Below are positions 8,454 through 64,000 of a stretch of DNA of 64,000 bases, in pieces. The position numbers were made by a program, and so were the translations under genes. The notes below the pieces were generated by a model that saw only the letters and a program-made list of their open reading frames with translations, did not search any database and was not told the DNA's origin. Source of the stretch: Polynucleobacter sp. Tro8-14-1 (GTDB lineage: Bacteria; Pseudomonadota; Gammaproteobacteria; Burkholderiales; Burkholderiaceae); contig NZ_JACVPX010000002.1 in assembly GCF_018881655.1 (NCBI RefSeq), positions 62,001 through 126,000 on the forward strand, given 5' to 3'. Position 1 is the stretch's first letter, and the number at the start of each line of letters is the position of its first letter.

Positions 8454-8861
8454 TTAAATACGACGACGCTTAGGAGGACGGCAACCATTATGTGGAACTG
8501 GAGTTACGTCTTGAATCTCAGTGATCTTGATACCTAATGAGTTCAATGCACGAACTGCTGATTCACGACCTGGGCCTGGGCCTTTGATCTGAACTTCCAA
8601 GTTCTTGATGCCGCATTCAACAGCTGCTTTACCAGCAACTTCTGCAGCTACCTGAGCAGCAAAAGGTGTTGATTTACGTGAGCCCTTGAAACCCTGGCCG
8701 CCAGAAGTTGCCCATGAAAGCGCATTTCCCTGACGATCAGTGATCGTAATAATGGTGTTATTAAAAGAAGCGTGAACGTGTGCAATACCGTCAGCAACGT
8801 TCTTTTTAACCTTCTTACGAGCGCGCTGTGAAGCGGCGGAAGCGGATTGTTGTTTTGCCAT
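8454..8861 (-). CDS. rpsK: 30S ribosomal protein S11
   Basis: 135 residues with the conserved [18 protein letters not shown] core and the C-terminal [13 protein letters not shown] motif. It lies on the 30S platform and contacts the 16S 3' region near the Shine-Dalgarno helix. It is 18 nt downstream of rpsM in the alpha-operon order. Confidence 0.98.
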
Positions 8862-8879
8862 GTCAATAAACTTTCTTGA

Positions 8880-9245
8880 TTATTTCTTGAGTTGCACACC
8901 AGACTTGCGTGGGCCCTTGCGGGTACGCGCATTAGTCTTAGTACGTTGACCACGTACAGGCAAGCCCTTACGATGACGAACACCGCGGTAGCAACCTAAG
9001 TCCATCAAACGCTTGATGCTCATAGTTACTTCACGACGAAGGTCACCTTCGGTAATGAATTTACCTACTTCATCGCGCAACTTTTCCAAGTCAGCGTCAG
9101 TAAGGTCTTTAACTTTTTTATTGATTGCAACACCTGTGGTTTGACAAATTTTGTTAGCACGAGTTGTGCCAATGCCAAAAATAGCTGTTAAACCGATAAC
9201 AGTATGTTGATGATTTGGGATGTTTACCCCAGCGATACGTGCCAT
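8880..9245 (-). CDS. rpsM: 30S ribosomal protein S13
   Basis: 121 residues starting [11 protein letters not shown], with the helix-two-turn-helix region and the basic tail [16 protein letters not shown] that reaches P-site tRNA. It is located in the 30S head and forms bridges to the 50S subunit. It follows rpmJ, as in the standard spc-alpha junction. Confidence 0.98.
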
Positions 9246-9269
9246 GAGATTTCCTCTTAATTAACCAGA

Positions 9270-9386
9270 TCAGCCTTGACGCTGCTTATGACGTGCGTCT
9301 GAAGAACAGATCACGCGAACAACGCGTTTGCGCTTAATGATCTTGCAATTTCTGCAAATACACTTAACGGATGCTAAAACTTTCAT
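9270..9386 (-). CDS. rpmJ: 50S ribosomal protein L36
   Basis: Too short for the ORF track. From ATG at 9386 it reads 38 residues starting [15 protein letters not shown] and ending KQRQG. The zinc ligands C-x2-C...C-x4-H are intact (CICRNC, CSSDARH), so this is the zinc-binding C+ form. AGGTGAG lies just upstream as ribosome binding site. It lies between infA and rpsM, its usual place in betaproteobacteria. Confidence 0.97.
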
Positions 9387-15561: not shown

Positions 15562-15573
15562 ATCCCTTTTTCC

Positions 15574-48488: not shown

Positions 48489-48564
48489 GCGCCCGTAGCT
48501 CAGTGGATAGAGTATTGGCCTCCGAAGCCAAGGGTCGCAGGTTCGATTCCTGCCGGGCGCACCA
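48489..48564 (+). tRNA. tRNA-Arg (CCG), likely island attachment site
   Basis: A 76-nt cloverleaf starting GCGCCCG, anticodon CCG in CTCCGAA, T-loop GGTTCGATT, encoded CCA. A recombinase-encoding island starts immediately after its 3' end, so its 3' half is the likely attB/attL core. No second copy of the 3' end was seen inside the window. Confidence 0.97.
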
Positions 48565-48809: not shown

Positions 48810-49025
48810 CTAGTCATTTTGAGCATCTGGTAGGTATTCAAATAGATCTTCGACTTTGCAATCGAAAAATTTGCATAGCTTACTAATTGCATCTAAATCG
48901 ACCCTTGCAGCAGTTTCATCGTAAAGCAGGGTGATGGTGTTCCGATGCAAGCCAGTCTCACGAGCGACATCTACCAACTTAAGTTTTCTTTCACCCATAA
49001 GGGTCGATAAATGGCATTTTATCAT
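48810..49025 (-). CDS. Small Xre-family (Cro/CI-type) repressor
   Basis: 71 residues, essentially one helix-turn-helix domain: KLKLVDVARETGLHRNTITLLYDE is the recognition unit, followed by DAISKLCKFFDCKVEDLF, as in short Xre regulators. It is divergent from the excisionase-like and integrase genes. Palindromic AATGTCATT boxes in the shared promoter region suggest it controls both directions. Confidence 0.85.
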   Translation of the reverse strand: MIKCHLSTLMGERKLKLVDVARETGLHRNTITLLYDETAARVDLDAISKLCKFFDCKVEDLFEYLPDAQND

Positions 49026-49098: not shown

Positions 49099-49167
49099 CA
49101 GGATGGCAAAAGTTAATTAAGAATTACTTTTCGCCACTTTGATTGATTTTACTACATGGAGTTAACA

Positions 49168-49404
49168 ATGGCACAGACCTATCTCACCACTGAAGAGCTT
49201 TCAGCTCGCATCAAATATGACCCCCGCACGATTCGGGATCAACTTAAAGATTCTGTCTTATTAGAGGGACGTCATTATTTCCGCCCTTTTGGCGGAAGAA
49301 AGATTCTCTATATCTGGGAAGTTATTGAGGATGACATGACAAAGGCGATCTCTTCGACCCTAAATCAAATCCCAATGGCAAGAGGGGGCGTTGTTCATGT
49401 CTAA
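49168..49404 (+). CDS. Excisionase-like DNA-binding protein
   Basis: 78 residues from ATG at 49168 with GGAG 7 nt upstream; the ORF-track start at 49156 leaves no such site. The winged-helix-like start YLTTEELSARIKYDPRTIRDQLKDSVLLEGRHY and the IWEVIEDDM segment resemble small excisionase/AlpA-type proteins. It overlaps the integrase start by 8 nt, so the two are coupled. Confidence 0.75.
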   Translation: MAQTYLTTEELSARIKYDPRTIRDQLKDSVLLEGRHYFRPFGGRKILYIWEVIEDDMTKAISSTLNQIPMARGGVVHV

Positions 49405-50956
49405 CATTCGCGTCAGAAAAGAAACTGGGCGCCTCTTTCTGGATTTCCGAGTTTTTGGGATTCGCTGTAGAGAGCAAACGGAATTGGGTGACTCCAAGGC
49501 TAACCGCAAATTACTGGCCAAGCTAGATGAAAACATCAAAGTAGCTGTAGCCAATGGCTCTTACCGCCATGAGCACTTCTTTCCAATGAGTAAACGCATT
49601 GCAGAAGTAGAAGAAGCACGACTGGCTATTAGCACCCCTGCTATTAATAAGGCTCCCACCAACTTGGTTTTAGCCATTGCTGGAATGCTACCCGACCGCC
49701 CGCCATCAACCCATCGTCAAACCCCACTGTTTTCCGACTTTGCCAATCAATGGTACTCAGAGATGGAAGTAGGGTGGAAGCGTTCGCATCGCACTACTAC
49801 TAGAGGTGTCCTGGATAACTTTCTAATTCCTCAATTTGGCCAAAAGACGGTAAATGAGATTAAAAAGGGTGAAATTCTCGCTTTTAGATCATCTTTAGCG
49901 AAGTTACCCGGAATTAAGAACAAAGAGAGCCTTTCAGCTTCTCGCATCAACCACATCATGACCCCGCTGCGGATGATATTGACAGAGGCTGCCGATCGCT
50001 ATGAATTTGCCCCGGCCTTTATCAATATCAAACCTTTAAGAGTGGGCAAGACCGATGTGCAGCCGTTCACGATGCAAGAAGTCCAAGACATTCTTCACAC
50101 GGTTCGAGCTGACTTTCGCAACTACTATATCGTTCGCTTCTTTACGGGGACCCGTACTGGTGAGATCGATGGCCTCAAATGGCAGTACGTTGATTTTGAA
50201 CGTCGCACGATTTCCATAAAAGAGACGATTGTGAATGACTATGAGGAAACTCCCAAAACGGGAGAGTCCGAGCGTGACATCCAAATGTCCCAGATGGTCT
50301 TTGATGCGCTTTTGGCTCAGCACAAAGTAACAGGGCAGGGCGTGTATGTTTTTGCAACCAGTGCTGGAACGCCCATTTCTCATCGCAATATTTCTAAGCG
50401 AGTTTGGTATCCGCTCTTAAGATTATTGGGCCTGAAAAAGCGAGTGCCCTATCAAACTCGCCATACCTATGCCACCCTCATGTTGGCTTCTGGCGAGGCC
50501 CCCGAATGGATCGCCCGTCAGATGGGACACACCACTACCGAGATGCTCTTTCGGGTGTACTCAAGATTCATTCCAAACTTGACCCGCCAGGATGGAAGCG
50601 CCTTTGAACGACTCATGGCAGCGCAGATGCAAGACCAGCCGCACCCCATTGTGAACCCCCAATCACTCAATGAAGTAAGCGCCCACTCAGTTATAAATCC
50701 CAACAGCATTGGAGTGAATCATTTACCGAAAACTCAGAGTCGGGTGACTGAGAAAGTTGAACAAGCACCAGAATTACCTGAGCCCGAAACCCCAAAGCCT
50801 CCAGTTGCACTGCCCAACACTCGAATCAATCCAAGTGCTGATGCTGCACTGATCGCTAATCCTTGGCTAGAAATTGCCAAACATTCTGGTCTTTCTATGC
50901 CCCCTAAAGTCGACCCAACCCCACCCTCAGATCACCCAAAGGGAGGCCTTTTATGA
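49397..50956 (+). CDS. Tyrosine recombinase (phage-type integrase)
   Basis: 519 residues from ATG at 49397, with AGAGGGGG 9 nt upstream. An N-terminal arm-DNA-binding segment (IRVRKETGRLFLDFRVFG, as in DUF3596-type integrases) is followed by a core-binding SAM-like domain (about 110-200) and the catalytic domain. Catalytic residues are the Arg in GTRTGEIDG, RHTY, the MGH histidine and the Tyr in FRVYSRF. A Pro-rich tail of about 110 residues follows. It probably moves the island at tRNA-Arg. Its stop overlaps the next gene (ATGA). Confidence 0.95.
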   Translation: MSNIRVRKETGRLFLDFRVFGIRCREQTELGDSKANRKLLAKLDENIKVAVANGSYRHEHFFPMSKRIAEVEEARLAISTPAINKAPTNLVLAIAGMLPDRPPSTHRQTPLFSDFANQWYSEMEVGWKRSHRTTTRGVLDNFLIPQFGQKTVNEIKKGEILAFRSSLAKLPGIKNKESLSASRINHIMTPLRMILTEAADRYEFAPAFINIKPLRVGKTDVQPFTMQEVQDILHTVRADFRNYYIVRFFTGTRTGEIDGLKWQYVDFERRTISIKETIVNDYEETPKTGESERDIQMSQMVFDALLAQHKVTGQGVYVFATSAGTPISHRNISKRVWYPLLRLLGLKKRVPYQTRHTYATLMLASGEAPEWIARQMGHTTTEMLFRVYSRFIPNLTRQDGSAFERLMAAQMQDQPHPIVNPQSLNEVSAHSVINPNSIGVNHLPKTQSRVTEKVEQAPELPEPETPKPPVALPNTRINPSADAALIANPWLEIAKHSGLSMPPKVDPTPPSDHPKGGLL

Positions 50957-52758
50957 GGCTCGCCAAACTCCTTACTTCAACCCATCACCAACCACTTGAG
51001 AAAACTATGGCACCTAAATACAAGCTTTATGGCAATGCAACTGATGACTTTATATTTGAATTAGTTTGCAAATACGACCCCTCAAATTTGAGCCACCTTC
51101 AAGACCTAGACTCAGTTTTGTATAACGAAATTGGGCGACGCAAAACCCTCAGAACGCGTTTAAGCGATACACGAGGATGGCGCAGGGGAGTAGAGAATTG
51201 GGAATCCTATAAATTACCCGACTGGCTAAATCTGTGCGAACAATTTAAGTCTGCTGGAGAATTTCGCGATAGTTATGGTGCCGCTCAAAGTGCTGCACAT
51301 AACTTAGGTCTTTGGCCTGAAATAGAAAAATTAATGGTTGATTCTGGGAAATGGTCCAACCAACTTTATGGCATTGATGGTCGCAAATATGCCAGTCGCT
51401 CGGAACTCATTGTCGCCAATTGGCTTCATTACTCAAAAATTGACTACATCAGCCATCCAAAGCTAAAACTGCAAGAAACAAGCAAGCCGTACAGAGGTGA
51501 TTTTCAATTGCCCATGGTGGCAAATATTGAAGTATTTATGTTCTCCAAAGACGGGGTCAAGTGTCGAACAAACTTACCGAATTGGAGCAAAGACTACCTA
51601 AATAATCGCCAAAAAAAGGAGCTCTATTATGAAACGGAGGGGTTACCATTCATTGCGATTGAGGCTGAAATTTATCGTCAACATGGCTATAAGAGATATT
51701 TAAGTCATATCCAGCAAGAATTTATCAACCTTGGCCTTGAGTTATGCGATCCCACAAATTTCCCAATTGAATATAGTCAACATGACCTTGGTATTAATTG
51801 GGCTTTAGATGATTTTATAAATTACGCTCAAACCAACAATATTCAATTTCTGTCGCATTTTCAGAAGAACGCGCAAGATCTATATAACCTAATCAAAATT
51901 AAAGGCCTTCGTAAGCAAGTTAGAGTTAAGCTCGATGAACTCTATGCAAGAAGGTCTATTGCATACAAAGAAGAGTTGAGGCCTATTGAAGATGTCAGGG
52001 CAGATTGCCTTCGACTGGGAATTATCGAAAGATCTCAATATGAACATGCGCACCAAAAAGGTCTTTTCCCGACAGATACGCCTTATTCAATATTGCAAAG
52101 CTATGGAATGACATGGTTTGAGTTTATTAACGGTAGAAAAATTGATGATTTTTGGGCTTGGGAGACTGCAAAGCAATTTGTACGCTCCTTTAACTTCCAA
52201 TCAAAAACAGAATTTGAGAAACATCCCAAGACGGGTAGCGACTGGGGCTTCATCAGAAAATCCCCAACAGCCCCAAGCGGCGGATATTCGGAGTGGACTA
52301 GTTGGCCGGACTTTCTGGGAAATACCAGCCCCATAGAGCAGGAACGTATAAAAGCTGAAATTGAAATTACAAATAAACTTATCAACGAATTTAAGACACT
52401 TGACACTAAGGCATCCGTCTTTTACCTAAAAAAATTAGGCCTACATGGCACTAGACTATTGAATAAAACAAGGGGGAGGCTTTATGAGGATCTACAAAGA
52501 CGACCGGACTGGATTCAATTGCGCGATATGCTCGCATCACGCATTCCAAAAGTTAAAACCATTTCAGAAGCTATAGAAATACTCCTATTTGAAAAATGCT
52601 TCTATTTTTCGGACTTTATAGCTCAGCGAGAGTCAAACCCCAACCTGCAGCGAATTCCCAAGCATCCCGACAGACTTGGTAAGGGGATTTTTGAGCTTGT
52701 CCGTAAAGCCGTGGGGTTGCCCACACATGATTCCAAGATGCGAAGTTCACTTAGTTAG
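50953..52758 (+). CDS. Putative PD-(D/E)XK-type nuclease with integrase-repeat-like segments
   Basis: 601 residues. The start at 50953 has a strong AAAGGGAGG site inside the integrase gene and a 4-nt ATGA overlap. Residues 95-125 (EFRDSYGAAQSAAHNLGLW) look like the small helical repeats found beside Vsr-like nucleases. Residues 145-240 fit a PD-(D/E)XK core: SRSELIVANWL (Glu), YRGDFQLP (Asp), IEVF (Glu), a following KK, then FIAIEAE. Residues about 345-396 and 402-456 resemble phage-integrase repeat units (EWTSWPDFLG end). Function is inferred: a DNA-cutting partner of the recombinase or a defence/homing nuclease. Confidence 0.65.
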   Translation: MRLAKLLTSTHHQPLEKTMAPKYKLYGNATDDFIFELVCKYDPSNLSHLQDLDSVLYNEIGRRKTLRTRLSDTRGWRRGVENWESYKLPDWLNLCEQFKSAGEFRDSYGAAQSAAHNLGLWPEIEKLMVDSGKWSNQLYGIDGRKYASRSELIVANWLHYSKIDYISHPKLKLQETSKPYRGDFQLPMVANIEVFMFSKDGVKCRTNLPNWSKDYLNNRQKKELYYETEGLPFIAIEAEIYRQHGYKRYLSHIQQEFINLGLELCDPTNFPIEYSQHDLGINWALDDFINYAQTNNIQFLSHFQKNAQDLYNLIKIKGLRKQVRVKLDELYARRSIAYKEELRPIEDVRADCLRLGIIERSQYEHAHQKGLFPTDTPYSILQSYGMTWFEFINGRKIDDFWAWETAKQFVRSFNFQSKTEFEKHPKTGSDWGFIRKSPTAPSGGYSEWTSWPDFLGNTSPIEQERIKAEIEITNKLINEFKTLDTKASVFYLKKLGLHGTRLLNKTRGRLYEDLQRRPDWIQLRDMLASRIPKVKTISEAIEILLFEKCFYFSDFIAQRESNPNLQRIPKHPDRLGKGIFELVRKAVGLPTHDSKMRSSLS

Positions 52759-52877: not shown

Positions 52878-53579
52878 ATGACTGCTTCTGAACTTAGCCC
52901 CATCCTAGAGCGCCAGTTGCTATTGCAACTAGGCGATCGCATTAAGCGCTTACGTAAAGCGCAAGGGCTTGGCACGGTCGAAGTATCTGCGTGCGCAAAA
53001 CTTACTCGTAATACTCTGCGGTCCATTGAAGCAGGCGATCCATCTCCTTCAATCGGCGCTTACCTAAGAGTGATGTCCGTTCTGGGCGTTAGCGGAGAGT
53101 TAGCGCTTTTGGCGGGCGACACGATGCAGGCCTCTCCAGCTGGATCAGCAGGAGCAAGGTCCAGACGCATTACCCCTAACGTACAAGTACGCGTTTTGCC
53201 AGATAACGCCGGGCACCGACTTCAAGATCTACAAAGTCTTGCCCTGCATGAAGAGGCTGTTCGGCTGGTAAAGACTGATCCTGCATTACTGCTACAAGCT
53301 CAAGATACCGTAGAGCGTTGGCTTGCTGCTGGCGATTCTCGCTCAGCTGGCCTATGGCGTGAATGGCAACTGATCTTAAGTGCAGGCTCTTGGCGCAAAG
53401 TGCTTGGCCGCACGAGGCATGCCCAGCAACTTAGACAAACCTCACCACTGGTGACCATTCTTCCAGATGAAGTGCGCCTTCGTATTTTGAAGGATGTGAG
53501 CGCGCTCAAAAAAGGGGTCGTATTTGGCAGCTCTATAACTGGCACCCAAGATGATGAAGCCTTCAAGGAGTTACCATGA
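52878..53579 (+). CDS. Xre-family regulator, antitoxin-like partner of a nucleotidyltransferase
   Basis: 233 residues. Residues 15-75 are an HTH_3 domain (LGDRIKRLRKAQGLGTVEVSACAKLTRNTLRSIEAG). The remainder (AGDTMQASPAGSAG linker, then a helical domain to about 230) is unassigned but carries conserved-looking WREWQLIL and LLP-type motifs. It overlaps the next gene by 4 nt (ATGA), giving a tight two-gene module. Codon use is more GC-rich than the genes that follow, suggesting separate origin. Confidence 0.8.
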   Translation: MTASELSPILERQLLLQLGDRIKRLRKAQGLGTVEVSACAKLTRNTLRSIEAGDPSPSIGAYLRVMSVLGVSGELALLAGDTMQASPAGSAGARSRRITPNVQVRVLPDNAGHRLQDLQSLALHEEAVRLVKTDPALLLQAQDTVERWLAAGDSRSAGLWREWQLILSAGSWRKVLGRTRHAQQLRQTSPLVTILPDEVRLRILKDVSALKKGVVFGSSITGTQDDEAFKELP

Positions 53580-54136
53580 CACGAGAAGAGCTAGAGCACA
53601 TCATTCGCGCCAGCGCTGATGTCACCAACCAATATGAATTTGTGATCATCGGCAGCCAGTCAATGCTAGGCCAAGTGCCCAATCCAGAAAAGGTCTTCAC
53701 CGTTTCTATGGAAGCGGACATCTATCCACGACAGGCTCCTGACTTGGCTGATGAGATTGATGGTGCAATTGGTGAAGGCTCGCAATTCCACGAGACTTAT
53801 GGTTACTACGCTCAAGGTGTGGGGCCGGATACCGCAATACTGCCAAAAGACTGGATGTCGCGTATCCATCGCGTGCAAAACAACAATACCAATGGTCGAG
53901 TGGGGTACTGCCTTGATGTGCTTGATCTCTTTCTTGCAAAGGCTGCGGCAGGGCGGGACAAAGATCGAGAGTTTTGTATGGCGCTACTGGAGTACGCCTA
54001 CCTTGCGCCCGCTCAAGCCCTAGAGTTGGTGCCGACTATGCCGCTCGATGATGGTGTGCAGCGAACGCTACGCGCAACGATTCGTCGCTGGGCAAAAGCA
54101 TTACGAGATGCGGGTCACGATATTCCACAGGATTAA
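53576..54136 (+). CDS. Nucleotidyltransferase-fold protein (DUF6036-like, toxin-like)
   Basis: 186 residues. FVIIGSQSMLGQ supplies the GS motif of the nucleotidyltransferase fold and MEADIYPR the acidic metal-binding strand; a YCLDVLDLFLAKAAAGRDKDREF segment follows. The nearest family I recognise is DUF6036/AbiEii-MNT-like proteins, which pair with Xre or AbiEi-type partners in toxin-antitoxin or abortive-infection modules. The coupling to the upstream HTH gene supports this. Substrate unknown. Confidence 0.75.
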   Translation: MTREELEHIIRASADVTNQYEFVIIGSQSMLGQVPNPEKVFTVSMEADIYPRQAPDLADEIDGAIGEGSQFHETYGYYAQGVGPDTAILPKDWMSRIHRVQNNNTNGRVGYCLDVLDLFLAKAAAGRDKDREFCMALLEYAYLAPAQALELVPTMPLDDGVQRTLRATIRRWAKALRDAGHDIPQD

Positions 54137-55032: not shown

Positions 55033-55848
55033 ATGCTTTTTAGCGAAAGAAATGGTCATAGCCAACTACCCTCGAACCTAAAACCTGATTCCATTTCGCC
55101 TACGCTCCGAAATTCCTTATGGAATGAAGTAATAGAGTGGATTGACACTCAAGACTTGGGAAGCGTTTGCTACTTAATTTGGAAAAATTTCTTTAAAACC
55201 CCAACAGACAAAATGCCCGCAATTGAGAGCTATAGGGGCATAAGTTATGCCCACGCTTGGGCACAAGCCAGAGAATATTACTTCTCATGCCCATGGCATA
55301 AAGTGTTTAGCTTTATCGAGTTTCTAATTTCTACAGACCCTTATGGCCCGCTTGCGAAAAAGATAAATGCTATTTTGATTGAAGAGGTGTCTGCATATCG
55401 CATATTTAATAATCACTTCATTCAAATAACCGACCAACATGAACTTTCGGCGCTATTAGAAGGTATTTCATATAAGGGAATTTTTTCTCCAGTATCTCAC
55501 CACATTCAATCTTCTATAGACCTATTATCGAGTCGCGAAAATCCGGACTATCGGAATTCAATTAAGGAAGCAATTTCAGCAGTTGAAGCAATGGGAAAAA
55601 TAATTACCAATCAGCCAAATGCAACTCTTGGCGAAATACTTAAAACACTTGAGTCAAAACATAAACTTCATGGAGCCCTAAAGAACGGCTACTTAAGTCT
55701 ATATGGCTATACAAGTGATGCTAATGGCATTAGACACGGGCTAATGGAAGAATCAAATCTAACGCAAGCAGACGCCAAATATTTTTTATTGTCATGCACT
55801 AGCTTTGTAAATTACTTGAAGACTTTTGTTGCAAACTCAAAAGAATAG
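55033..55848 (+). CDS. AbiJ-like abortive-infection protein with HEPN-type C-terminal domain
   Basis: 271 residues. The start MLFSERNGHSQLPS... LRNSLWNEVIEWI matches the AbiJ N-terminal domain type 4 pattern as I know it. The C-terminal third (DYRNSIKEAISAVEAMGKII ... ANGIRHGLMEES) is helical with an Arg-His pair typical of HEPN-related RNases near residue 234. AbiJ proteins give phage resistance by abortive infection in lactococci. GGAG lies upstream of the ATG. A 31-bp motif shared with the DUF2971 gene precedes it. Confidence 0.7.
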   Translation: MLFSERNGHSQLPSNLKPDSISPTLRNSLWNEVIEWIDTQDLGSVCYLIWKNFFKTPTDKMPAIESYRGISYAHAWAQAREYYFSCPWHKVFSFIEFLISTDPYGPLAKKINAILIEEVSAYRIFNNHFIQITDQHELSALLEGISYKGIFSPVSHHIQSSIDLLSSRENPDYRNSIKEAISAVEAMGKIITNQPNATLGEILKTLESKHKLHGALKNGYLSLYGYTSDANGIRHGLMEESNLTQADAKYFLLSCTSFVNYLKTFVANSKE

Positions 55849-56029
55849 AAAAGATATTGGAACCATTTGCCCGGCCTGCGGAAAAACCAACGACTGCCAA
55901 TTGGCAAGCGATAAGAAATGTTGGTGCTTTGATGTGCCAGTTGACAAGTTCAAACTAGAACAAGTCCTTAAAGACAAATCAAAAGATCAATGTCTGTGTA
56001 AGAATTGCTTGAAGAAGTTAAGCGTCTAG
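55826..56029 (+). CDS. Cysteine-rich CWC-family mini-protein
   Basis: Up to 67 residues. ICPACGKTNDCQLASDKKCWCF and a C-terminal CLCKNCLKKL give the metal-binding pattern of the CWC family (PF14375-like). There is no ATG, only TTG codons at 55826 and 55829 that overlap the AbiJ-like gene, so the start is uncertain and translation is probably coupled. Role unknown. Confidence 0.65.
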   Translation: MLQTQKNRKDIGTICPACGKTNDCQLASDKKCWCFDVPVDKFKLEQVLKDKSKDQCLCKNCLKKLSV

Positions 56030-56057
56030 AGTTTAGACGCTCGCCACAAAAGAGTAA

Positions 56058-57305
56058 TTAATCAAAGGTGCCTTCAATATGTCGGCGCGCAATCCCGATA
56101 GATTCTGATAGAGAAACCCCAAAACCAGCACAGAATTGCTTTAATTCCTCATCTTTTTCATCAAAAACATTCCGCTCATAGCTCCTATGTAGTCGCAAAA
56201 AAACCTGAGCTACCCGATAATTTTGATCACTCTCTTTTATATTTATTAACAAGTTAGCAGCAAGATGATGGGACGATAATTCACCAGAACACACCCCTTG
56301 ATAAATCATTGGGTACTTAGCTTTTAGCCCAATAAGCCAAGACTCTAATGCTACAAAATTCCTGGTGGAGGACATCGTCCACCAGTCCAACATTCTCTTG
56401 CATTGCCTAGCATTTAAATTTAACAATGTGGAGATTGCGATCAACCATCTCGAATTATCTAAGAATCGCAACTTTCTCTGTTGATCCAATTCTTCTGCAA
56501 GCAAGCTAATTAGCCTTTCCATTGGCGGTGAATTGGTGCTTAAACTGGCAAATGACATCGCAATTGGATAGTCAATGAACTTATCAAGATACATTGAACC
56601 GTCAGTCCCAGCGCCATAAAAGGCTTCAACAGCTTGCTTAATCTGCAACCTATTCCACAGCAAAAGAAAAGCGACACCTTCTATATCAAATAGGTGCTTA
56701 AGTCTTTCCAATAAACGGATTGCATAAGCTGGTGAACACCTGTCCAACTCATCCACAATAACAATAACTTTTTCACCTTTAGCTTCTTTAATATGTTTAG
56801 CTATAAGCCTTTTTAAATGCTCAAGAACCTCTTTTCTTTCTGCCAACTCATCTAATTTTGCGCGAATTATTTCTTCAGATTCATCTTTCAAGATATCTGC
56901 TGCTGTATCGAGCACATCTTCATTGATACCAATTAAATTTCCTGCGGTTTTAGCTGCAGCTTTTGCTAAATTTGGCACTGCCCTTGCGATTAATGGAGCA
57001 ACGGAATCAAAAAGGTTTTTTCTTTCCGCGGCACCCAATGCTGCGCCCATTGAAGAAATTAAAGTTAATGCGGGATCATCAACCCAATCTGCCTCAAATG
57101 CATCAATCCATACAACATTAAATTGATTGCGCTCTTTAATTAAGGCCTCCAAGTTCTCCCCGAACCAGGTCTTCCCAATACCCCAATCTCCATCGATAGC
57201 CACTACACCTTTTGGCAATCCCTCAAGCAATTTATAAATGCCCTCAGCAAGTTTTTTTCTGTCCAATGCATCATCTGTAAAGGCTGCTTTATTTAAATTG
57301 GTCAT
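56058..57305 (-). CDS. KAP-family P-loop NTPase
   Basis: 415 residues. Walker A is GDWGIGKT (about 39-46) and Walker B is VIVIVDELDRC (about 180-190). Between them lies a helical insertion (APLIARAVPNLAKAAAKTAGNLIG), as in KAP NTPases, but without clear membrane helices. The sensor-type motif LLLWNRLQIKQAVEAFYG and YLDKFIDYP follow. KAP NTPases occur in phage-defence settings and membrane-associated systems. It is divergent from the DUF2971 gene. Confidence 0.88.
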   Translation of the reverse strand: MTNLNKAAFTDDALDRKKLAEGIYKLLEGLPKGVVAIDGDWGIGKTWFGENLEALIKERNQFNVVWIDAFEADWVDDPALTLISSMGAALGAAERKNLFDSVAPLIARAVPNLAKAAAKTAGNLIGINEDVLDTAADILKDESEEIIRAKLDELAERKEVLEHLKRLIAKHIKEAKGEKVIVIVDELDRCSPAYAIRLLERLKHLFDIEGVAFLLLWNRLQIKQAVEAFYGAGTDGSMYLDKFIDYPIAMSFASLSTNSPPMERLISLLAEELDQQRKLRFLDNSRWLIAISTLLNLNARQCKRMLDWWTMSSTRNFVALESWLIGLKAKYPMIYQGVCSGELSSHHLAANLLINIKESDQNYRVAQVFLRLHRSYERNVFDEKDEELKQFCAGFGVSLSESIGIARRHIEGTFD

Positions 57306-57365
57306 TGCAATTCCCCGTCGTTCAATCGCATTCTTTGTTGCCCAACACCCTTGTGGAGATTAACA

Positions 57366-57396
57366 GATTGCCTGATTTGACCAAAGGTGGGAAGAT
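57366..57396 (+). repeat. 31-bp motif upstream of the DUF2971 gene, copy 2
   Basis: GATTGCC, eight variable bases, then CCAAAGGTGGGAAGAT; it ends 6 nt before the DUF2971 start codon, where GGGAAG may also serve as ribosome binding site. Confidence 0.6.
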
Positions 57397-57402
57397 TCCC
57401 TT

Positions 57403-58269
57403 ATGCCTTTAGAGCCAAAGATAAAAGTTTCACCTCTTTATGATGAACAAATAGATGCCTATGGAAATCCCAAGCCGGTTGTAATGGGAAGGGGGCACTT
57501 CTATAAATATAAATCACTAGCCCCAAAATACCTGCCTCATACATTAGAAATTATTAAAGACAGGAAGATATTTTGTCCAAGGCCATCTCAAACAAACGAC
57601 AAAGATGAAGAATTCAAACCGCCAGTTACTGTTGGAGATTATTCCGATCCAATATACAGGGCAAGAGTCCATAGATGGGTTAGACGCATAGCCACAAGAA
57701 GCAACCCTCATGCCTTGGAAGCACAAATTCAGCACCAGCTAAGCATCATTACTCAAGAAGGTCTTGAGAGCTATGCGAAACAGCTTGAACCCGAATATCA
57801 CCAAGAAATAGAAAATCAATACCGTCTTTTAAGTCTAAGTGATATTCCAGACAATCATCACTTGTGGGTTAATTATGCCGATGACTATGCTGGCATTAGC
57901 TTTCAATTTTTTATCACTCCAGAATTTTCTACCGTCTATCAAGTTAACTATGTCCAAAGTCGACCTAAGTGGGATTTAGTATGCGACCAAGATATGGAGA
58001 CTCTTTCTGCTACGGCTCTTACTAAACTGGATAAATGGCGAGATGAAAGGGAATTCAGAGTGGTTATTTCCGAACCGCCGCTTCCATATGGGCCCGTATT
58101 AGTAAATCAAAAATTAGATTTGCCAATTGAAGCATTCGCTGGAATTTATTTGGGAAATAAAATTAATCCAACAATTAAAACTTTAATTGTAGATTTGGCA
58201 AAACAGTATTTGCCTTTAGTTCCAATTTATGAAGTTGCCAAAGGCTCTCTAATAAAGAAGATTCTATAA
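57403..58269 (+). CDS. DUF2971-family protein
   Basis: 288 residues with the DUF2971 hallmarks: HFYKYKSL, PRPSQTNDKDEEF, LWVNYADDYAGISFQF, VNYVQSRPKWD and the KWRDEREFRVVI strand, ending in GIYLGNKI. Biochemistry of the family is unknown to me; members are common next to defence genes and mobile elements. It is divergent from the KAP NTPase with about 97 nt between start codons, so the two may be co-regulated. Confidence 0.8.
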   Translation: MPLEPKIKVSPLYDEQIDAYGNPKPVVMGRGHFYKYKSLAPKYLPHTLEIIKDRKIFCPRPSQTNDKDEEFKPPVTVGDYSDPIYRARVHRWVRRIATRSNPHALEAQIQHQLSIITQEGLESYAKQLEPEYHQEIENQYRLLSLSDIPDNHHLWVNYADDYAGISFQFFITPEFSTVYQVNYVQSRPKWDLVCDQDMETLSATALTKLDKWRDEREFRVVISEPPLPYGPVLVNQKLDLPIEAFAGIYLGNKINPTIKTLIVDLAKQYLPLVPIYEVAKGSLIKKIL

Positions 58270-58461
58270 AAATTTCACCAGCTCAAAGCTGTCGATGCCA
58301 ATTCGGGAATATTCGAAACCGCTGGAAACCAATAGATTCGGTGCTTAGCGGGTAGTGAGTCTTGTTGTGCTTAGACCCAATGTGTAGAACTGTTTTAGTC
58401 TTTAACCTGGTTGAGCTAATGCGAACGTGAAAATCCGCCCGACGAACTTATTCGTCCACCA
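58270..58461. other. Gap between convergent DUF2971 and PfpI-like genes
   Basis: 192 nt without an ORF or RNA that I recognise. A perfect GACGAA/TTCGTC hairpin at 58441-58456 lies just after the PfpI-like stop, without a T-run, and may be a weak terminator. It could mark a junction between modules. Confidence 0.4.
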
Positions 58462-59151
58462 TTACGCACCTAAATTAAGGGCCGCCTTTTGAATCACCGT
58501 CTCCATTACGACAATCCGATCCTTTTGGAGTGCCAGTACCTCATTCACTAATGCTGGGCCCGCTTTTTTTGGCGAACCACAATTAAATGGTGGCACAGGA
58601 TCATATTCAAGCGCCAACTGAAGTCGCTTAGCAATATCTTCCCCTGCAAGTTCTGCGGCTAGCTCATAAGCAAAATCAATGCCCGCAGTTACCCCTCCGC
58701 CAGAGATAAATTTTCCATCTTTGACCACTCGTTGATTAATGGGCTCAACACCAAATAGCGGAAGATATTTGCTCCAGATCCAGTGACACGCACTTTTGTG
58801 GCCCTTGAGGATTCCAGCAGCCGCAAGAATGAGTGATCCATTACAGACAGAGGTTATATATTTGGCGCCGATGCTTTGCTTACGCAGGAACGAGAGGGTT
58901 ACCTCATCAATCATCTGCTCGCCGATTCCAAAACCGCCGGGTACACAAAGAACATCCAATTGAGGACAGCTCTCAAATGTTGTCGTTGGATTAATAGAAA
59001 ACCCCACATCCGTCATTACGGGGCCTAAGTCTTTCCACACCAAATGCACTTTCGCATTAGGCACTCGGCTAAGAACTTGAGCGGGGCCGGTGAGATCAAG
59101 CTGAGTCAAATTAGGAAATAACAGAAAGCCCACTTCAATGTTTGTATTCAT
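58462..59151 (-). CDS. DJ-1/PfpI-family protein, isonitrile-hydratase-like
   Basis: 229 residues of the class I glutamine-amidotransferase-like fold. LTQLDLTGPAQVL supplies the acidic residue (Asp19) and ITSVCNGSLIL the nucleophile-elbow cysteine (Cys103); GGGVTAGIDFAYELAAELAGED is the C-terminal helix. This combination resembles isonitrile hydratase (isocyanide to N-formamide). Activity is not proven; other PfpI enzymes share the fold. It is divergent from a GlxA-type regulator that is itself related. Confidence 0.85.
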   Translation of the reverse strand: MNTNIEVGFLLFPNLTQLDLTGPAQVLSRVPNAKVHLVWKDLGPVMTDVGFSINPTTTFESCPQLDVLCVPGGFGIGEQMIDEVTLSFLRKQSIGAKYITSVCNGSLILAAAGILKGHKSACHWIWSKYLPLFGVEPINQRVVKDGKFISGGGVTAGIDFAYELAAELAGEDIAKRLQLALEYDPVPPFNCGSPKKAGPALVNEVLALQKDRIVVMETVIQKAALNLGA

Positions 59152-59172
59152 ATCAGCCCCTTAGTTGAATTA

Positions 59173-59226
59173 AGCATGATCAAAGTCTAAGCAATATTGA
59201 TTTGGCATAAATGACAAAATCATGCT
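59173..59226. promoter_or_regulatory. Divergent control region with AGCATGAT/ATCATGCT boxes
   Basis: An 8-bp box, AGCATGAT (59173-59180), and its inverted copy ATCATGCT (59219-59226) frame the 86-nt gap between the PfpI-like gene and the GlxA-type regulator. The spacing suits an AraC-type dimer; the regulator next door is the obvious candidate. Confidence 0.5.
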
Positions 59227-59237
59227 AATTTCTGCCA

Positions 59238-60203
59238 ATGACCAAATTACGCCAAATTGCTCTCATTGCTTTTGATGGATTTCAGATTCTCGATATCACG
59301 GGGCCCGCCTCTGTTTTCTCTGCGGCCAACGATGCCTTAGGCAAGCCCTATTACCAAGTGGCGACCATATCAGCCAAAGGAGGGTTAGTTTCCAGTCATT
59401 CTGGAATTAGCATTCAATCCCAAAGCTACAAATCTTCTAAGTTAGCCCCTATAGATTCGCTCTTAATCGCTGGCGGTAGTGCGGATGGATTGGAGGCACT
59501 ATCTAGGAACGAGCCTTTCATGAAGTGGATTAAGCAGACGGTTCAAGGGACTCGTCGCTATGGGTCTGTTTGTACTGGGGCTTTTGTTCTAGGTCACCTA
59601 GGCTTACTCAAGAAAAAGAAAGTGGCAACACACTGGGGTTCATGCGAAAAACTGGCAATGCTTTATCCAGATGCAGAAGTTGATGCCAACGCATTATTTG
59701 TTAATCAAGGAAAACTTTGGACTTCTGCTGGAGTGACTACAGGCATTGATATGGCCCTAGAAATGGTGGCACAAGATCTTGGCACTGAAATTGCTAACGT
59801 TATTGCTAAACGTTTAGTACTTTATGCAAAGCGGCCTGGCTATCAATCACAATTTAGTCCATTACTCAAAGCCCAAGAAAATGCTGTGCCAAAATTTTTA
59901 AAACTGGTTGAATGGCTTGGAAAACATCTTGATCAAAATATTGACATTCCAAGGATGGCGGAGCAAATGGCCATGTCAGAAAGAACCTTTTATCGCAAAT
60001 TCACGCAATGCTTTGGAGAAACGCCTCGGGATTATGTCGAAAAGTTACGACTAGATAATGCGCGCAATCTTCTTTCTTCTAAAACTTCACTAAAACAGAT
60101 CGCCATATTAAATGGCTATTCCGCTCCCGCTCAATTGACAAAGGCATTTGAGCGGCGGTTTGGAGTTAGTCCTACGATGTTTAGGAAAATGCATTGTCAA
60201 TAA
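59238..60203 (+). CDS. GlxA-family AraC-type regulator
   Basis: 321 residues: an N-terminal DJ-1/PfpI-like domain (LIAFDGFQILDITGPASVFSAAN, GSVCTGAFVLGHLGLL) and a C-terminal AraC DNA-binding domain (about 220-318) with two HTH units (IPRMAEQMAMSERTFYRKFTQCFG and LKQIAILNGYSAPAQLTKAFERRFG). Such regulators often control an adjacent enzyme of the same fold, here the divergent PfpI-like gene. It probably activates that gene in response to a ligand of the N-terminal domain. Confidence 0.93.
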   Translation: MTKLRQIALIAFDGFQILDITGPASVFSAANDALGKPYYQVATISAKGGLVSSHSGISIQSQSYKSSKLAPIDSLLIAGGSADGLEALSRNEPFMKWIKQTVQGTRRYGSVCTGAFVLGHLGLLKKKKVATHWGSCEKLAMLYPDAEVDANALFVNQGKLWTSAGVTTGIDMALEMVAQDLGTEIANVIAKRLVLYAKRPGYQSQFSPLLKAQENAVPKFLKLVEWLGKHLDQNIDIPRMAEQMAMSERTFYRKFTQCFGETPRDYVEKLRLDNARNLLSSKTSLKQIAILNGYSAPAQLTKAFERRFGVSPTMFRKMHCQ

Positions 60204-60272
60204 TTTAAGGGGGCTGAAAAATTTAGCGCTTCAAATTAAGACTTAGGGTTAAAAATTCAAGTTAGGTGAGCA

Positions 60273-60956
60273 ATGGAAAATGAATACGATGCAATTCGAG
60301 AGCTAGCAAAAACCGCGGGAAAAGGAATTGATGCGACACGAGAAATGGGTGGCTTTATTGCTAAATATATCGGCGGCCCTTTAGAGCAGGGGATAGGAAT
60401 ATTTGAGGATCGACTGAAATTTCTGCGCTGGGAGCGTCAAATTCGCCTCATCAGGCGCGTACAAGAAATCCTGGATGAGTCAGGCCTCAAAGCCCCAACC
60501 CAAAATGTTCCGATGAAGCTATTGATTCCCATCCTCCAAGGCGCAACCCTTGAGGAAAATGACTCCCTTCAGGATATTTGGGCCAATCTTTTGGTGAATG
60601 CTGCCAATGCCTCTTTTGGTGAAGAAGTGCGCTCCTCATACATTTCAATTCTTGAGCAATTAAACCCACTAGATGCACAAATTCTAAATACCCTTTATTC
60701 GCTGCCATTTAATGAAAGTCAACACAACGGTATTCTTACTGCGGAACTTCCAGAAATTGCGCGAATTGCAGAAGAGGATAGAAAAGAAAATCCACTGCCG
60801 CCGAATAATGAGATAGTTATTTGTTTAAGCAACTTGGTGCGACTCGGGTGCCTACGCCCAGAAATGACCTGGGGTGGCGGGGAGGTCTTTGGAAGGGTTA
60901 ACCCAACCATTGCTGGTAGGGCCTTTGTAAATGCCTGCCGCATTAGAAAAATATAG
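60273..60956 (+). CDS. Abi-alpha (DUF4393) protein
   Basis: 227 residues. GGPLEQGIGIFEDRLKFLRWERQIRLIRRVQEIL is a long amphipathic helix. The core LLIPILQGATLEENDSLQDIWANLLVNAAN followed by ILEQLNPLDAQILNTLY is the DUF4393/Abi-alpha signature. A C-terminal winged-helix-like part (LSNLVRLGCLRPE) ends the protein. AGGTGAG precedes the ATG. The family name reflects phage-resistance proteins; the mechanism is unknown. It is the first gene of a four-gene run that ends with two protease-like genes. Confidence 0.85.
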   Translation: MENEYDAIRELAKTAGKGIDATREMGGFIAKYIGGPLEQGIGIFEDRLKFLRWERQIRLIRRVQEILDESGLKAPTQNVPMKLLIPILQGATLEENDSLQDIWANLLVNAANASFGEEVRSSYISILEQLNPLDAQILNTLYSLPFNESQHNGILTAELPEIARIAEEDRKENPLPPNNEIVICLSNLVRLGCLRPEMTWGGGEVFGRVNPTIAGRAFVNACRIRKI

Positions 60957-60979
60957 GCTAAAGTTAACTCAAAATCATT

Positions 60980-61483
60980 ATGACAATAAAACGCGAAGCT
61001 GCATTCCACGAGGCCGGCCACGCCATTGCTGCATACCAGTCAAAATTCCACGCTTTATGTGGCCCGATTAATCTCATGAATTATGGGGCTGGCGAAATCT
61101 TTATTTCCCTGAGCAAAAGTAAACTGAGGGCTGCCGGAAAGCCCATTGATAACTCAATACAAAAGGATGGGGAAATTGTTGACGATCTTGCCACTATTCT
61201 TAGCGCTGGCCTAGCTGCCGAATATTTAGCCGAGCTAAAAGTGGATGGTTTGAAGGCGGATCCAACTTGCGCTAAATTAGATCACGACCTATTAAGATCT
61301 CAATTGAGCAATGCAAATCTATCTTTATGCATTGCTCAATACGAGAGCACCGCAATTAAGCTGCTTGAATCTGACTGGTCACTGGTGACCAGTCTCGCCA
61401 ACTATCTTTACGATAATCCGATTTCCAGCCCAAATGACATCATAGCGTTCATCGAACGACATATATTTAGAGATGGCACATAG
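60980..61483 (+). CDS. Stand-alone M41-like zinc metalloprotease
   Basis: 167 residues. REAAFHEAGHAIAAYQ carries the zinc HExGH motif at His10/His14, as in the FtsH (M41) protease domain. DDLATILSAGLAAEYLAE and LDHDLLRSQL match the following helices, with an Asp as likely third ligand. There is no AAA+ domain, so it must work alone or with a partner. It begins 24 nt after the Abi-alpha gene, suggesting joint expression. Confidence 0.8.
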   Translation: MTIKREAAFHEAGHAIAAYQSKFHALCGPINLMNYGAGEIFISLSKSKLRAAGKPIDNSIQKDGEIVDDLATILSAGLAAEYLAELKVDGLKADPTCAKLDHDLLRSQLSNANLSLCIAQYESTAIKLLESDWSLVTSLANYLYDNPISSPNDIIAFIERHIFRDGT

Positions 61484-61573
61484 GAATCATTAAGCCCCAC
61501 CGATAATTGCCTGGAGCGTCATAAAGCAAAAAATAAGGCAAATCTATGATAAATTTCCACTATAGGAGGCGCA

Positions 61574-61768
61574 ATGAAACAAAAAAAGGCCAATAAACTA
61601 CTCAGCGATTCAGATATTTTAGCGCTTCTTTCTGAGGCATCTAGTCAGCTTGAAATTTATACTGCCCTTAACAGAACATCTAACCTTGGCCCAAGTCAAC
61701 AGATGCCGCTTGGTAGACCCAAGGATTGGACGTATCCGATAGGCCTCTCATTTATAAAGAATATCTGA
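61574..61768 (+). CDS. 64-residue protein of unknown function
   Basis: The sequence MKQKKANKLLSDSDILALLSEA begins after a full TAGGAGG ribosome binding site, strong evidence for a real gene. The first half is helical; the second half (SQQMPLGRPKDWTYPIG) is not. No family recognised. It ends 1 nt before the SDH-type protease gene, so translation is likely coupled; an inhibitor, adaptor or substrate role for the protease is possible but speculative. Confidence 0.7.
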   Translation: MKQKKANKLLSDSDILALLSEASSQLEIYTALNRTSNLGPSQQMPLGRPKDWTYPIGLSFIKNI

Positions 61769-61769
61769 T

Positions 61770-62693
61770 ATGGCGGCGTGGTCTCAATTAGTAGACGAAT
61801 TAAATTCCCTCTCTGCCGACCCGAATATCAAACACCAGTGGCTTGTAAGCAATCTTACAACGGCATTAGCAAATATTTCAAAGCTCAGAAAAGACAGGAA
61901 TGTTCTTTTTTATGCTTCAGCCTTCCTACAGAAGCCACACTTAAACCCCGATGCCATTCAAATTACCTATGAAGAAATAAATGGATTCATGTCCTGTTTG
62001 TATGGGATGGATTTCAATAAGGGGCTGACTTTGATTCTTCACACTCCAGGAGGCGTCACGAATGCAGCCGAATCAATCGTTCAATATCTTCATAGTAAAT
62101 TTAAGGATATAGAGGTAATTATTCCCACCTTTGCTATGTCTGCTGGAACGATGATCAGCCTGTCAGCAAATAGAATAATTATGGGCCGACCAAGCCAACT
62201 AGGCCCAATAGATCCTCAAATTCCTATTTCAGGAAAATTTGTATCTGCACGAGCAATTGTTGATCAATTTGCAAAGGCAAAATTGGAAATTAGCTCTGAC
62301 CTTGCTTTGGCTCATGCATGGGCCCCAATACTACAATCGCTTGGGCCTGCGCTTTTAGTCGAAGCTGAGTATGCATTAGATTATGGCGAGAGGATGGTGG
62401 CATCGTGGCTTGCAAATAGAATGCTAAAAAGATCGCCCAATAAAATCACTAAAGCGCAAGCTATCGCTCGATACTTCAATGATGCAAGCACTCACAAGAG
62501 TCATGGCAGAAGAATTGATATTGCTGAAGCTAAGCGACAAGGTGTTAATGTTATAGCATTAGAAAGTGATCAAAAATTACAAAATGAGGTTCTTACCGCA
62601 TATCATTTGGCCACAATTTTGATTGGACAAACTGTAATTTCTAAATTGCTTTGGAATAACCTCGGAATTAGCTGGGTGAAGAATCACTCTTGA
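61770..62693 (+). CDS. SDH-type serine protease (ClpP/crotonase fold)
   Basis: 307 residues. LTLILHTPGGVTNAAESIVQYL forms the oxyanion-hole strand, IIPTFAMSAGTMISLSANRI contains the catalytic Ser124, and MGRPSQLGPIDPQIP carries the downstream acidic/helix element. This is the serine dehydrogenase proteinase (PF01972-like) pattern, related to SppA/ClpP. Family members turn up in defence islands. It overlaps the convergent recombinase gene by 10 nt. Confidence 0.85.
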   Translation: MAAWSQLVDELNSLSADPNIKHQWLVSNLTTALANISKLRKDRNVLFYASAFLQKPHLNPDAIQITYEEINGFMSCLYGMDFNKGLTLILHTPGGVTNAAESIVQYLHSKFKDIEVIIPTFAMSAGTMISLSANRIIMGRPSQLGPIDPQIPISGKFVSARAIVDQFAKAKLEISSDLALAHAWAPILQSLGPALLVEAEYALDYGERMVASWLANRMLKRSPNKITKAQAIARYFNDASTHKSHGRRIDIAEAKRQGVNVIALESDQKLQNEVLTAYHLATILIGQTVISKLLWNNLGISWVKNHS

Positions 62694-64000
62694 TAATAAA
62701 ACATAAAAATACCCCCCAACAAAATCATCATCTGCCTAAAAGCAAATGGCAAATCATCCGCCGCCTTACCTCCGCACTTTAATACCAGACTATTTTTTCC
62801 AGTGGGCGCATAGCCGACTTCTAATGCATCCAGAAATCTCATATAGGTCTCATTGATTGGGCTTGAAATAACCGCGCTTTTCCTTTTATGTTGGCCGATA
62901 CCCAATTCTTTCTGAGTAAATTTAATCGCATCTGCCCTTGCTCTAATTCGCTCTTTGGCGTAATCAAGCAATAAGAAGATATCGTCAGGATGCATTTCAA
63001 AATACGCGGTTGCTTTTGTAAGCCATTGATCAGCCTTCTTGATTCCCCCTCGCATACGCGGCTTTTTGACAATAAAAGCCTTGGGCAAGGGATCGGGTAA
63101 ATTTTCGTAAAGATACTTTCTATCTGATGCATATAGGTCGGCTTGATTGGTGAACGCGGTGGCATTGCTGATCCAGTGATGAGCAAGCTCTTCCGGAATA
63201 TCAAGTAACGCAGCCGTTTTAGCAAACCGCTTCTCATCTGCGCTTACAAGCCTCTCGAAACTATCGCAAGCCCACTCAATCCCCCGCCCAGCATCAGGAT
63301 TCAATATCTGCACAAGGTTTAAATGCTTTGAAGTCTGTTTTTGAATCTTTGGCCCTGGACTCATCACCTCATTGAGTAACACCGGAACTTTATCTAGCCC
63401 AGCCTTGGGGTCATCAAATGGCGTTTTGCACCGCCTACGTCTGATATCTAAATTACGTTTAGTGCCAGGATAGAGCGCATTTAGTAACCCCGGATTTAAG
63501 CGCAACAAACGTTCATGTAAAAAAGCGCCGGTCAGTACATCAATCACGTGGATGTAGCTATATAGAGTCGTTGCAGGCGAAGAGTGCCCAAGCAAAGTAG
63601 ATACGACATAGAGCTCTGATGGACTTGCCCTCGAGTCATTGAGTAAAAAATAACGGGCATATCCCATACGACGCTTGAGATTTCTAATCTGCAAAATGGG
63701 ATTACTTCCATCTGCCATTCCTACAGCCGCATGATCCCTCGCAATGCGCGCCTGGATTTCCGTATTGCCATAAAGGTGATCAAGTATGAAGCGCTCAGAA
63801 TTAGGCAATCGCGGCGCACATAAAAGCATCAAGGTATTCATCGCTGCTGAATGCCGGAGATGATGAAAGCGGATATAGGGATTTTTTGTGACCCGCCTCA
63901 TCGACTCATGAATATAGTCAATGATTCTGTCGCGCTCGGTGTTACTCGTTATTTCTAGGGAATTCTTCTCGCGCGCTTTAGCGCTCATTGGTACCGGGAA
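62684..64000 (-). CDS. Second tyrosine recombinase, partial, with long C-terminal extension
   Basis: The reading frame is open to the window edge; the ORF-track start at 63988 is internal, because no stop lies upstream. The visible part has the catalytic FHHLRHSAAMNTL and VSTLLGHSSPATTLYSYIHV motifs (Tyr nucleophile); the N-terminal Arg is outside the window. About 280 residues of helical, basic extension follow the catalytic domain. It differs clearly from the tRNA-Arg integrase, so it belongs to another element or to the far side of this one. Confidence 0.85.
   Translation of the reverse strand, partial: FPVPMSAKAREKNSLEITSNTERDRIIDYIHESMRRVTKNPYIRFHHLRHSAAMNTLMLLCAPRLPNSERFILDHLYGNTEIQARIARDHAAVGMADGSNPILQIRNLKRRMGYARYFLLNDSRASPSELYVVSTLLGHSSPATTLYSYIHVIDVLTGAFLHERLLRLNPGLLNALYPGTKRNLDIRRRRCKTPFDDPKAGLDKVPVLLNEVMSPGPKIQKQTSKHLNLVQILNPDAGRGIEWACDSFERLVSADEKRFAKTAALLDIPEELAHHWISNATAFTNQADLYASDRKYLYENLPDPLPKAFIVKKPRMRGGIKKADQWLTKATAYFEMHPDDIFLLLDYAKERIRARADAIKFTQKELGIGQHKRKSAVISSPINETYMRFLDALEVGYAPTGKNSLVLKCGGKAADDLPFAFRQMMILLGGIFMFYYQE

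Follow-up and report, generated by a model that had tools for sequence, protein, structure and literature searches.

A predicted PD-(D/E)XK nuclease with an integrase-type repeat appears to occupy an exchangeable slot behind the integrase of a Polynucleobacter tRNA island

In Polynucleobacter sp. Tro8-14-1, the stop codon of a tyrosine integrase gene overlaps the start of a 601-codon open reading frame, here called X601, and the arrangement raises the question of what a protein so placed does for the element that carries it. A preliminary description of the window (the whole 64,000-nucleotide stretch of DNA analysed, from contig 11 of genome G000) read the pair as a recombinase translationally coupled to a putative nuclease, and suggested that it might be a new kind of mobility module. 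X601 would be the third gene of a repressor-controlled alpA-int-nuclease operon (Table 1). The AlpA-like protein upstream of the integrase gives sub-threshold HTH matches only and is kept in related elements. The integrase itself ends in a proline-rich C-terminal tail of about 130 residues, and its homologues (E<=1e-30) occur in 13 of 186 genomes of the genus.

Table 1. Features of the integrase operon and its surroundings (positions in the window).
Feature	Position	Strand	Basis
tRNA-Arg(CCG), integration target	48489..48564	+	ARAGORN
attL core GTTCGATTCCTGCCGGGCGCACCA, the 3' end of tRNA-Arg(CCG)	48541-48564	+	repeat comparison
Cro/C1-type repressor (HTH_26), divergent from the int operon	48810..49025	-	Pfam HTH_26, E 3e-19
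Small AlpA/excisionase-like HTH protein, 82 aa, overlapping the int start	49156..49404	+	ORF
Tyrosine integrase, Arm-DNA-bind_2 + Phage_integrase	49397..50956	+	Pfam
Shine-Dalgarno and ATGA stop/start overlap	50940..50956	+	sequence reading
X601, predicted PD-(D/E)XK nuclease with INT_rpt repeat(s)	51007..52758	+	probable true start Met19
Predicted PD-(D/E)XK domain, residues 135-275	51355..51777	+	profile comparison, AF2, Foldseek
Predicted catalytic residues E151, D183, E193, K222	51403, 51499, 51529, 51616	+	alignment
Weaker degenerate INT_rpt copy, residues 346-393	51988-52131	+	rebuilt profile
INT_rpt-like repeat, residues 402-456	52156..52320	+	rebuilt profile
HTH + DUF6036 nucleotidyltransferase pair, toxin-antitoxin-like	52878..54136	+	Pfam
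Variable cargo: AbiJ_NTD4/PDC-S32, KAP NTPase/PDC-S20, PDC-S31, Abi_alpha, SDH-type protease, others	55033..62693		profile matches

The element is a tRNA-integrated genomic island of 23.2 kb that carries defence genes as cargo. Its att repeats, at tRNA-Arg(CCG), are 24 bp long, and the second copy lies about 23.2 kb downstream with one mismatch, beyond the window (L007:7760-7783; G000:C11 133710-133733). Of the 61 genomes of the genus that were sampled, 60 match the right flank of the island, in many cases from precisely the repeat onward. In three genomes inspected (L081, L082 and L083), the flanks are contiguous across one intact tRNA-Arg, with 94-98% identity on either side. With the 3' end of the tRNA directly repeated and the site contiguous in relatives, the element is identified as an island integrated at a tRNA gene, for which an empty site is proven. 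A close relative, the L005 element, is a 7.9-kb deletion form with an exact 20-nt copy of the att core at 15568, and the cargo of L005 and L006 differs from that in the window. Such tRNA/tmRNA-integrated defence islands are a known, non-conjugative class, represented in Pseudomonas by I23, I44 and I55 (PMC12595487). In the accessible part of that source, these islands share with the present one a tyrosine integrase, att direct repeats at an RNA gene, an AlpA-like regulator and variable defence cargo, whereas no account of a conserved nuclease slot coupled to the integrase was found there.

The overlap of the integrase stop with the 601-codon frame, behind a good ribosome binding site, was confirmed: the int frame (49397-50956) and the longer frame (50953-52758) overlap as ATGA, preceded by the Shine-Dalgarno sequence AAAGGGAGG, and both elements are kept in all four loci homologous to X601. 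The junction on which translational coupling was originally proposed is thus real, but a direct link of the full reading frame to ATG 50953 is not conserved. In two of the four homologues, L005 and L006, the frame from ATG 50953 ends after 12 codons with TAA at codon 13 (CAC TAA in L005; CAA TAA plus a 1-nt insertion in L006). Because these two stop before Met19, whose ATG at 51007 is present in all four, X601 probably starts at 51007, which gives a protein of 583 residues, and ATG 50953 probably opens a leader of 12-18 codons. An identical junction begins an unrelated HD-domain gene in sister elements, suggesting that ATG 50953 belongs to a common junction between int and the following slot; any coupling of int to X601 would then run via the short leader.

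What, then, does X601 encode? None of the curated families in Pfam and NCBIfam covers it; Pfam matches to DUF4882 and APAF-1 WHD do not reach the cut-off and were put down to chance, and its identification as a recombinase was rejected, no recombinase domain being present. Residues 135-275 are predicted, by profile comparison and modelling, to form a PD-(D/E)XK nuclease domain. A profile of residues 125-275 matches the nuclease inserts of UvrD/helicase-IV-like helicases (hmmsearch, E 3e-5 to 8e-4), and hhalign of the X601 domain against these inserts and PDC-S69 gives a probability of 96.8 (hhalign E-values being those of single pairwise comparisons). PADLOC returns a weak partial match to PDC-S69 (E 5e-5, profile positions 176-268 of 289); a full-length match was not obtained, the similarity being confined to the nuclease domain. 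The helicase inserts and PDC-S69 thus have a nuclease domain homologous to that of X601, with the same invariant residues, but theirs is fused to helicase or other N-terminal domains, and in the loci read they come with neither an INT_rpt array nor a coupled integrase.

Over 10 diverse sequences, S148, E151, N156, D183, F184, P187, E193, Y215 and K222 are invariant, among them Asp183 and Glu193, which had been put forward as catalytic residues from the start. A predicted catalytic Glu is found on helix A (E151), and the Asp and second Glu (D183, E193) on core strands. The Glu...Asp...Glu...Lys pattern seen earlier is real, and homologous to that of a known nuclease domain, but its lysine is not at the E-x-K position, where X601 reads E193-V-F195. 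Migration of the lysine out of E-x-K is a known variation of the PD-(D/E)XK fold, and we assume that its place is taken by K222, an invariant lysine of the following helix. For the domain alone, AF2 gives a model of moderate confidence (pLDDT 59.7, pTM 0.58) with the order H-E-E-H-E-H, which was taken to agree with the alpha-beta-beta-beta-alpha-beta core fold of the superfamily; the model of full-length X601 was unusable (pLDDT 34.6). As the proposed comparison with known folds anticipated, the top Foldseek matches of the domain model in the PDB are mostly PD-(D/E)XK enzymes. Ranked by length-normalised score, I-Bth0305I, a homing endonuclease, comes first (TMt 0.72), although its E is 0.09. 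BFVD gives 35 viral matches at E<=1e-3, and most of those with names are homing endonucleases, restriction endonucleases or DUF559/DUF2726 proteins.

The Vsr-like PD-(D/E)XK homing endonucleases (I-Bth0305I and phage homologues) therefore share their predicted fold and core topology with X601. Those of the I-Bth0305I type likewise pair a nuclease with separate repeat DNA-binding modules, and their genes also lie at a boundary of genetic exchange. X601 differs from them in belonging to an island integrase operon rather than to an intron or a space between phage genes, in having INT_rpt-like repeats, and in that an HD gene was replaced, not joined; no target or intronless cognate site for X601 was identified.

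Two segments resembling integrase repeats had been reported in the C-terminal half, of which residues 402-456 are clearly supported and the earlier copy is weak. The suggested PF14882 search of this region gave no match (none is listed for X601 at E<=1, and a PF14882 search of its own genome missed it too), but an INT_rpt profile rebuilt from VPA1269 and related repeats, X601 left out, does match. Residues 402-456 score 28.6 bits against 10.6 for the best of 2000 composition-matched shuffles, and are the sole match of the profile among 300 frames of the window; a weak second unit appears near residues 346-370. When the C-terminal third was searched against plasmids, the top three matches were VPA1269-family proteins adjoining gmtY (E 0.02-0.4), two of which have 8 INT_rpt units each. 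By analogy, the repeats of X601 probably bind DNA. The gamma-mobile-trio (GmtY/VPA1269 (GmtZ)/GmtX) resembles the present locus in that a tyrosine recombinase gene is overlapped by the gene of an INT_rpt protein. However, VPA1269 is a recombinase (Integrase_2) with 8 repeats, and X601 a predicted nuclease with one clear repeat. X601 was rejected as a member of the trio, there being no GmtX partner and no NCBIfam gamma-mobile-trio match among the window proteins or the L006 recombinases.

X601 is present in 4 of 186 genomes of the genus, always behind the same integrase, so that the expected recurrent pairing is seen; neither of the outcomes held to speak against the preliminary description, a missing nuclease fold or a pairing that does not recur, was found. 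Outside Polynucleobacter, X601 was not detected among the genomes, plasmids, phages and viral contigs sampled, and neither was its nuclease domain alone in viral contigs, phages or plasmids. The dN/dS ratio is 0.19-0.36 for the whole gene, 0.11-0.20 for the nuclease domain and 0.13-0.16 for residues 276-460; N-terminal values of close pairs are high, but are based on very few changes. The low ratios of the nuclease domain and of residues 276-460 point to purifying selection, and X601 is therefore maintained.

The position behind int is not reserved for X601. In the tRNA-Arg elements with an intact slot (n=8, the disrupted slots of G098 and G157 being left out), the gene after int encodes X601 in four and an HD-domain protein in four. 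The latter is an overlapping 350-residue gene in G015, G108, G109 and a second contig of G151, whose assembly is fragmented and partly contaminated. These elements are without X601 although their integrases are at least 76%, and up to 96%, identical. DNA homology between the two kinds of element stops at 50956-50966, that is, at the int stop and slot start, and a second exchange point near 49730 swaps the repressor, alpA and the integrase arm domain. L005 illustrates this mosaicism, since its X601 is 97% identical to that of the window and yet stands with another repressor/alpA/arm type. More distantly, tRNA-Val elements have an integrase 43-44% identical, followed by a 185-residue GIY-YIG protein, which falls just short of the Pfam cut-off (E 0.001) and matches a PHROG endonuclease (E 7e-5). 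In Aeromonas caviae, an integrase 44% identical is followed by a protein overlapping by 1 nt that matches HD and TraI_2, both above cut-off. Counter-examples are a small protein without family on an Acinetobacter plasmid and a zeta-toxin gene on a Shewanella plasmid, and integrase sampling beyond the genus is thin. Neither plasmids nor viral contigs yielded close relatives of the slot HD and GIY-YIG proteins, and no HD homologue was found in the genome searched. Because the types of slot gene stay constant while the downstream cargo changes, the slot behaves as backbone. The position thus appears, from these comparisons, to be a real, recurrent and exchangeable slot for a nuclease or hydrolase, in which the HD protein was more probably the original occupant, later displaced by X601. 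Of the supposed new mobility module, the recurrent slot therefore stands, whereas the nuclease is not a required partner, related integrases being followed by HD/TraI_2 or GIY-YIG proteins. In the open-access literature, no description of an exchangeable nuclease slot behind int, or of an INT_rpt nuclease, was found.

From the fold family, catalytic residues, repeat, operon position, slot exchange, purifying selection and element borders, all read from sequence, we infer a nuclease activity for X601, together with its target, timing and benefit. The reading we prefer, tentatively and at somewhat short of an even chance, is that X601, as a nuclease of homing type, took the place of the HD gene and is directed against the DNA of rivals. 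It would be an endonuclease joining a homing-endonuclease-like PD-(D/E)XK catalytic domain to a C-terminal INT_rpt helical repeat array, and would be expressed together with the integrase once the repressor is lifted. Its target would be a specific site in the DNA of elements, competing or related, from which X601 is absent, and cutting there would exclude rivals and/or promote cassette exchange at the 3' end of int, as free-standing homing endonucleases do. This action of one element against another is favoured because of the homing-like domain, the position at a recombination boundary, and the 97%-identical X601 found across differing repressor/arm modules. Nuclease genes are known at boundaries of phage genetic exchange, and are active in phage-satellite conflict (PMC10448857). 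The evidence for homing in the present elements consists of the mosaic breakpoints at the 5' boundary of X601; the displaced HD gene was lost and not flanked, and plain homologous recombination or a single replacement gives the same result.

The nearest alternative in terms of the operon is that X601 helps the integrase in excision or integration, its repeats binding the att arms and a T7-endonuclease-I-like nuclease processing junctions or nicks. X601 would be co-translated with int, its repeat is otherwise found in VPA1269 recombinases adjoining GmtY, and the extended family profile matches T7 endonuclease I (PF05367), a Holliday-junction resolvase (hhalign probability 93.7; 2pfj at E 0.044 in a PDB sequence search, amid noise). 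Yet the X601 domain itself gives no significant match to that enzyme (E 0.32), and tyrosine recombinases resolve their own junctions. Moreover, the same integrase lineage works with an unrelated slot protein, which makes it unlikely that recombination depends on X601; the integrase does not need it, and we consider a helper role quite unlikely. For the same reason, cutting of attB by X601 was set aside, and the cut-assisted integration offered by the preliminary description is weakened and disfavoured, the nuclease not being required by close relatives of the integrase; competition or homing fits better.

It is also unlikely, in our estimate, that X601 is simply the first cargo gene, cutting phage DNA and placed behind int merely for expression. 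The surrounding cargo is of defence type, there is the weak PDC-S69 match, and tRNA/tmRNA islands often hold defence genes near int, according to the accessible part of PMC12595487; against this, the slot types are constant while cargo varies, and the PDC-S69 likeness is limited to the nuclease domain. It may be noted that slot occupants might be ordinary first cargo, and that defence cargo is often nucleolytic. An improbable alternative is a stability or mobilisation factor replacing the HD/TraI_2-like protein, which would nick for transfer, or kill element-losing cells together with HTH-DUF6036. TraI_2, matched by the Aeromonas slot protein, is a MobH relaxase-associated domain, and an HTH gene follows X601 in all four homologous loci; however, none of the element genes examined could be recognised as coding for a relaxase or for conjugation, the HTH-DUF6036 pair lies 120 bp away from X601, and the L005 copy is without DUF6036.

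Returning to the action of X601 against rival elements, mobile islands contend for a small number of tRNA sites, and little is understood of how a resident keeps rivals from integrating. A slot with predicted nucleic-acid-processing enzymes of unrelated folds, cleanly exchanged at the start codon, makes rival exclusion a testable question, and would give integrase-repeat modules a role outside recombinases. A doubtful extension is that Arm-DNA-bind_2 (DUF3596) integrases in general have a dedicated slot whose unrelated, co-expressed enzymes (HD/TraI_2, GIY-YIG, PD-(D/E)XK with INT_rpt) decide competition for the tRNA site; if true, mobile islands would have in it a specificity module that parallels superinfection exclusion without being the same thing. 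The host of the present island is a freshwater Polynucleobacter, and named strains of the genus also carry homologues.

The right end of the tRNA-Arg(CCG)-integrated defence island carries two neighbouring genes which, with lengths taken from the related Polynucleobacter locus L006, encode proteins of 1220 and 1026 residues. At least the first of these is a very large tyrosine recombinase with only a weak Pfam match. Distant relatives (1129, 935 and 182 residues) are found in the tRNA-Val element L078, and in the Aeromonas caviae locus L121 an 889-residue recombinase adjoins the int-HD pair. The right-end genes may constitute a second, so far undescribed recombinase module. The source record of L121, NZ_AP026896.1, is 4.9 Mb long and labeled a plasmid in PLSDB; it looks like a misfiled chromosome.

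Coordinates of features in the island and related loci
Feature	Locus	Position	Strand
Proline-rich Int tail, ~130 aa, C-terminal to catalytic domain	window	about 50570-50953	
HTH and DUF6036 nucleotidyltransferase genes, toxin-antitoxin-like	window	52878-54136	
Candidate defence genes PDC-S32 (AbiJ-like), PDC-S20 (KAP NTPase), PDC-S31, Abi_alpha	window	55033-58269, 60273-60956	
Right-end gene pair	window, into L007 (same contig)	62684-64000, L007:3-5450	-
AbiEi/AbiEii pair, island's right edge	L007	5591-7457	
Int-coupled HD-domain family	L070	6419-7474	-
Same	L071	10266-11321	-
Same	L072	6223-7275	+
Same	L073	1815-2870	-
GIY-YIG gene directly 3' of tRNA-Val integrase	L078	5391-5945	+
Same	L077	5559-6113	+
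Same	L076	9858-10412	-
Small protein, almost entirely INT_rpt-like repeats	L051 (Vibrio plasmid)	8662-9309	
Same	L052 (Vibrio plasmid)	8683-9315	

Searches of plasmids, viral contigs and other family genomes returned no close relative of the HD-domain family coupled to int. The GIY-YIG gene directly follows a tRNA-Val integrase in three genomes. The proline-rich tail is present in the tRNA-Arg integrases and absent from those of tRNA-Val. Downstream of X601, the predicted nuclease gene behind int, the HTH-DUF6036 pair is preceded by the palindromic stretch ATTTGATCAATATATTGACCAAAT; the related locus L005 has lost DUF6036 and retained the HTH gene. In the Vibrio plasmids, a gene for a Tus-like replication-terminus-binding protein adjoins or lies near the genes built from repeats like INT_rpt, the integrase-type repeat of X601 (residues 402-456).
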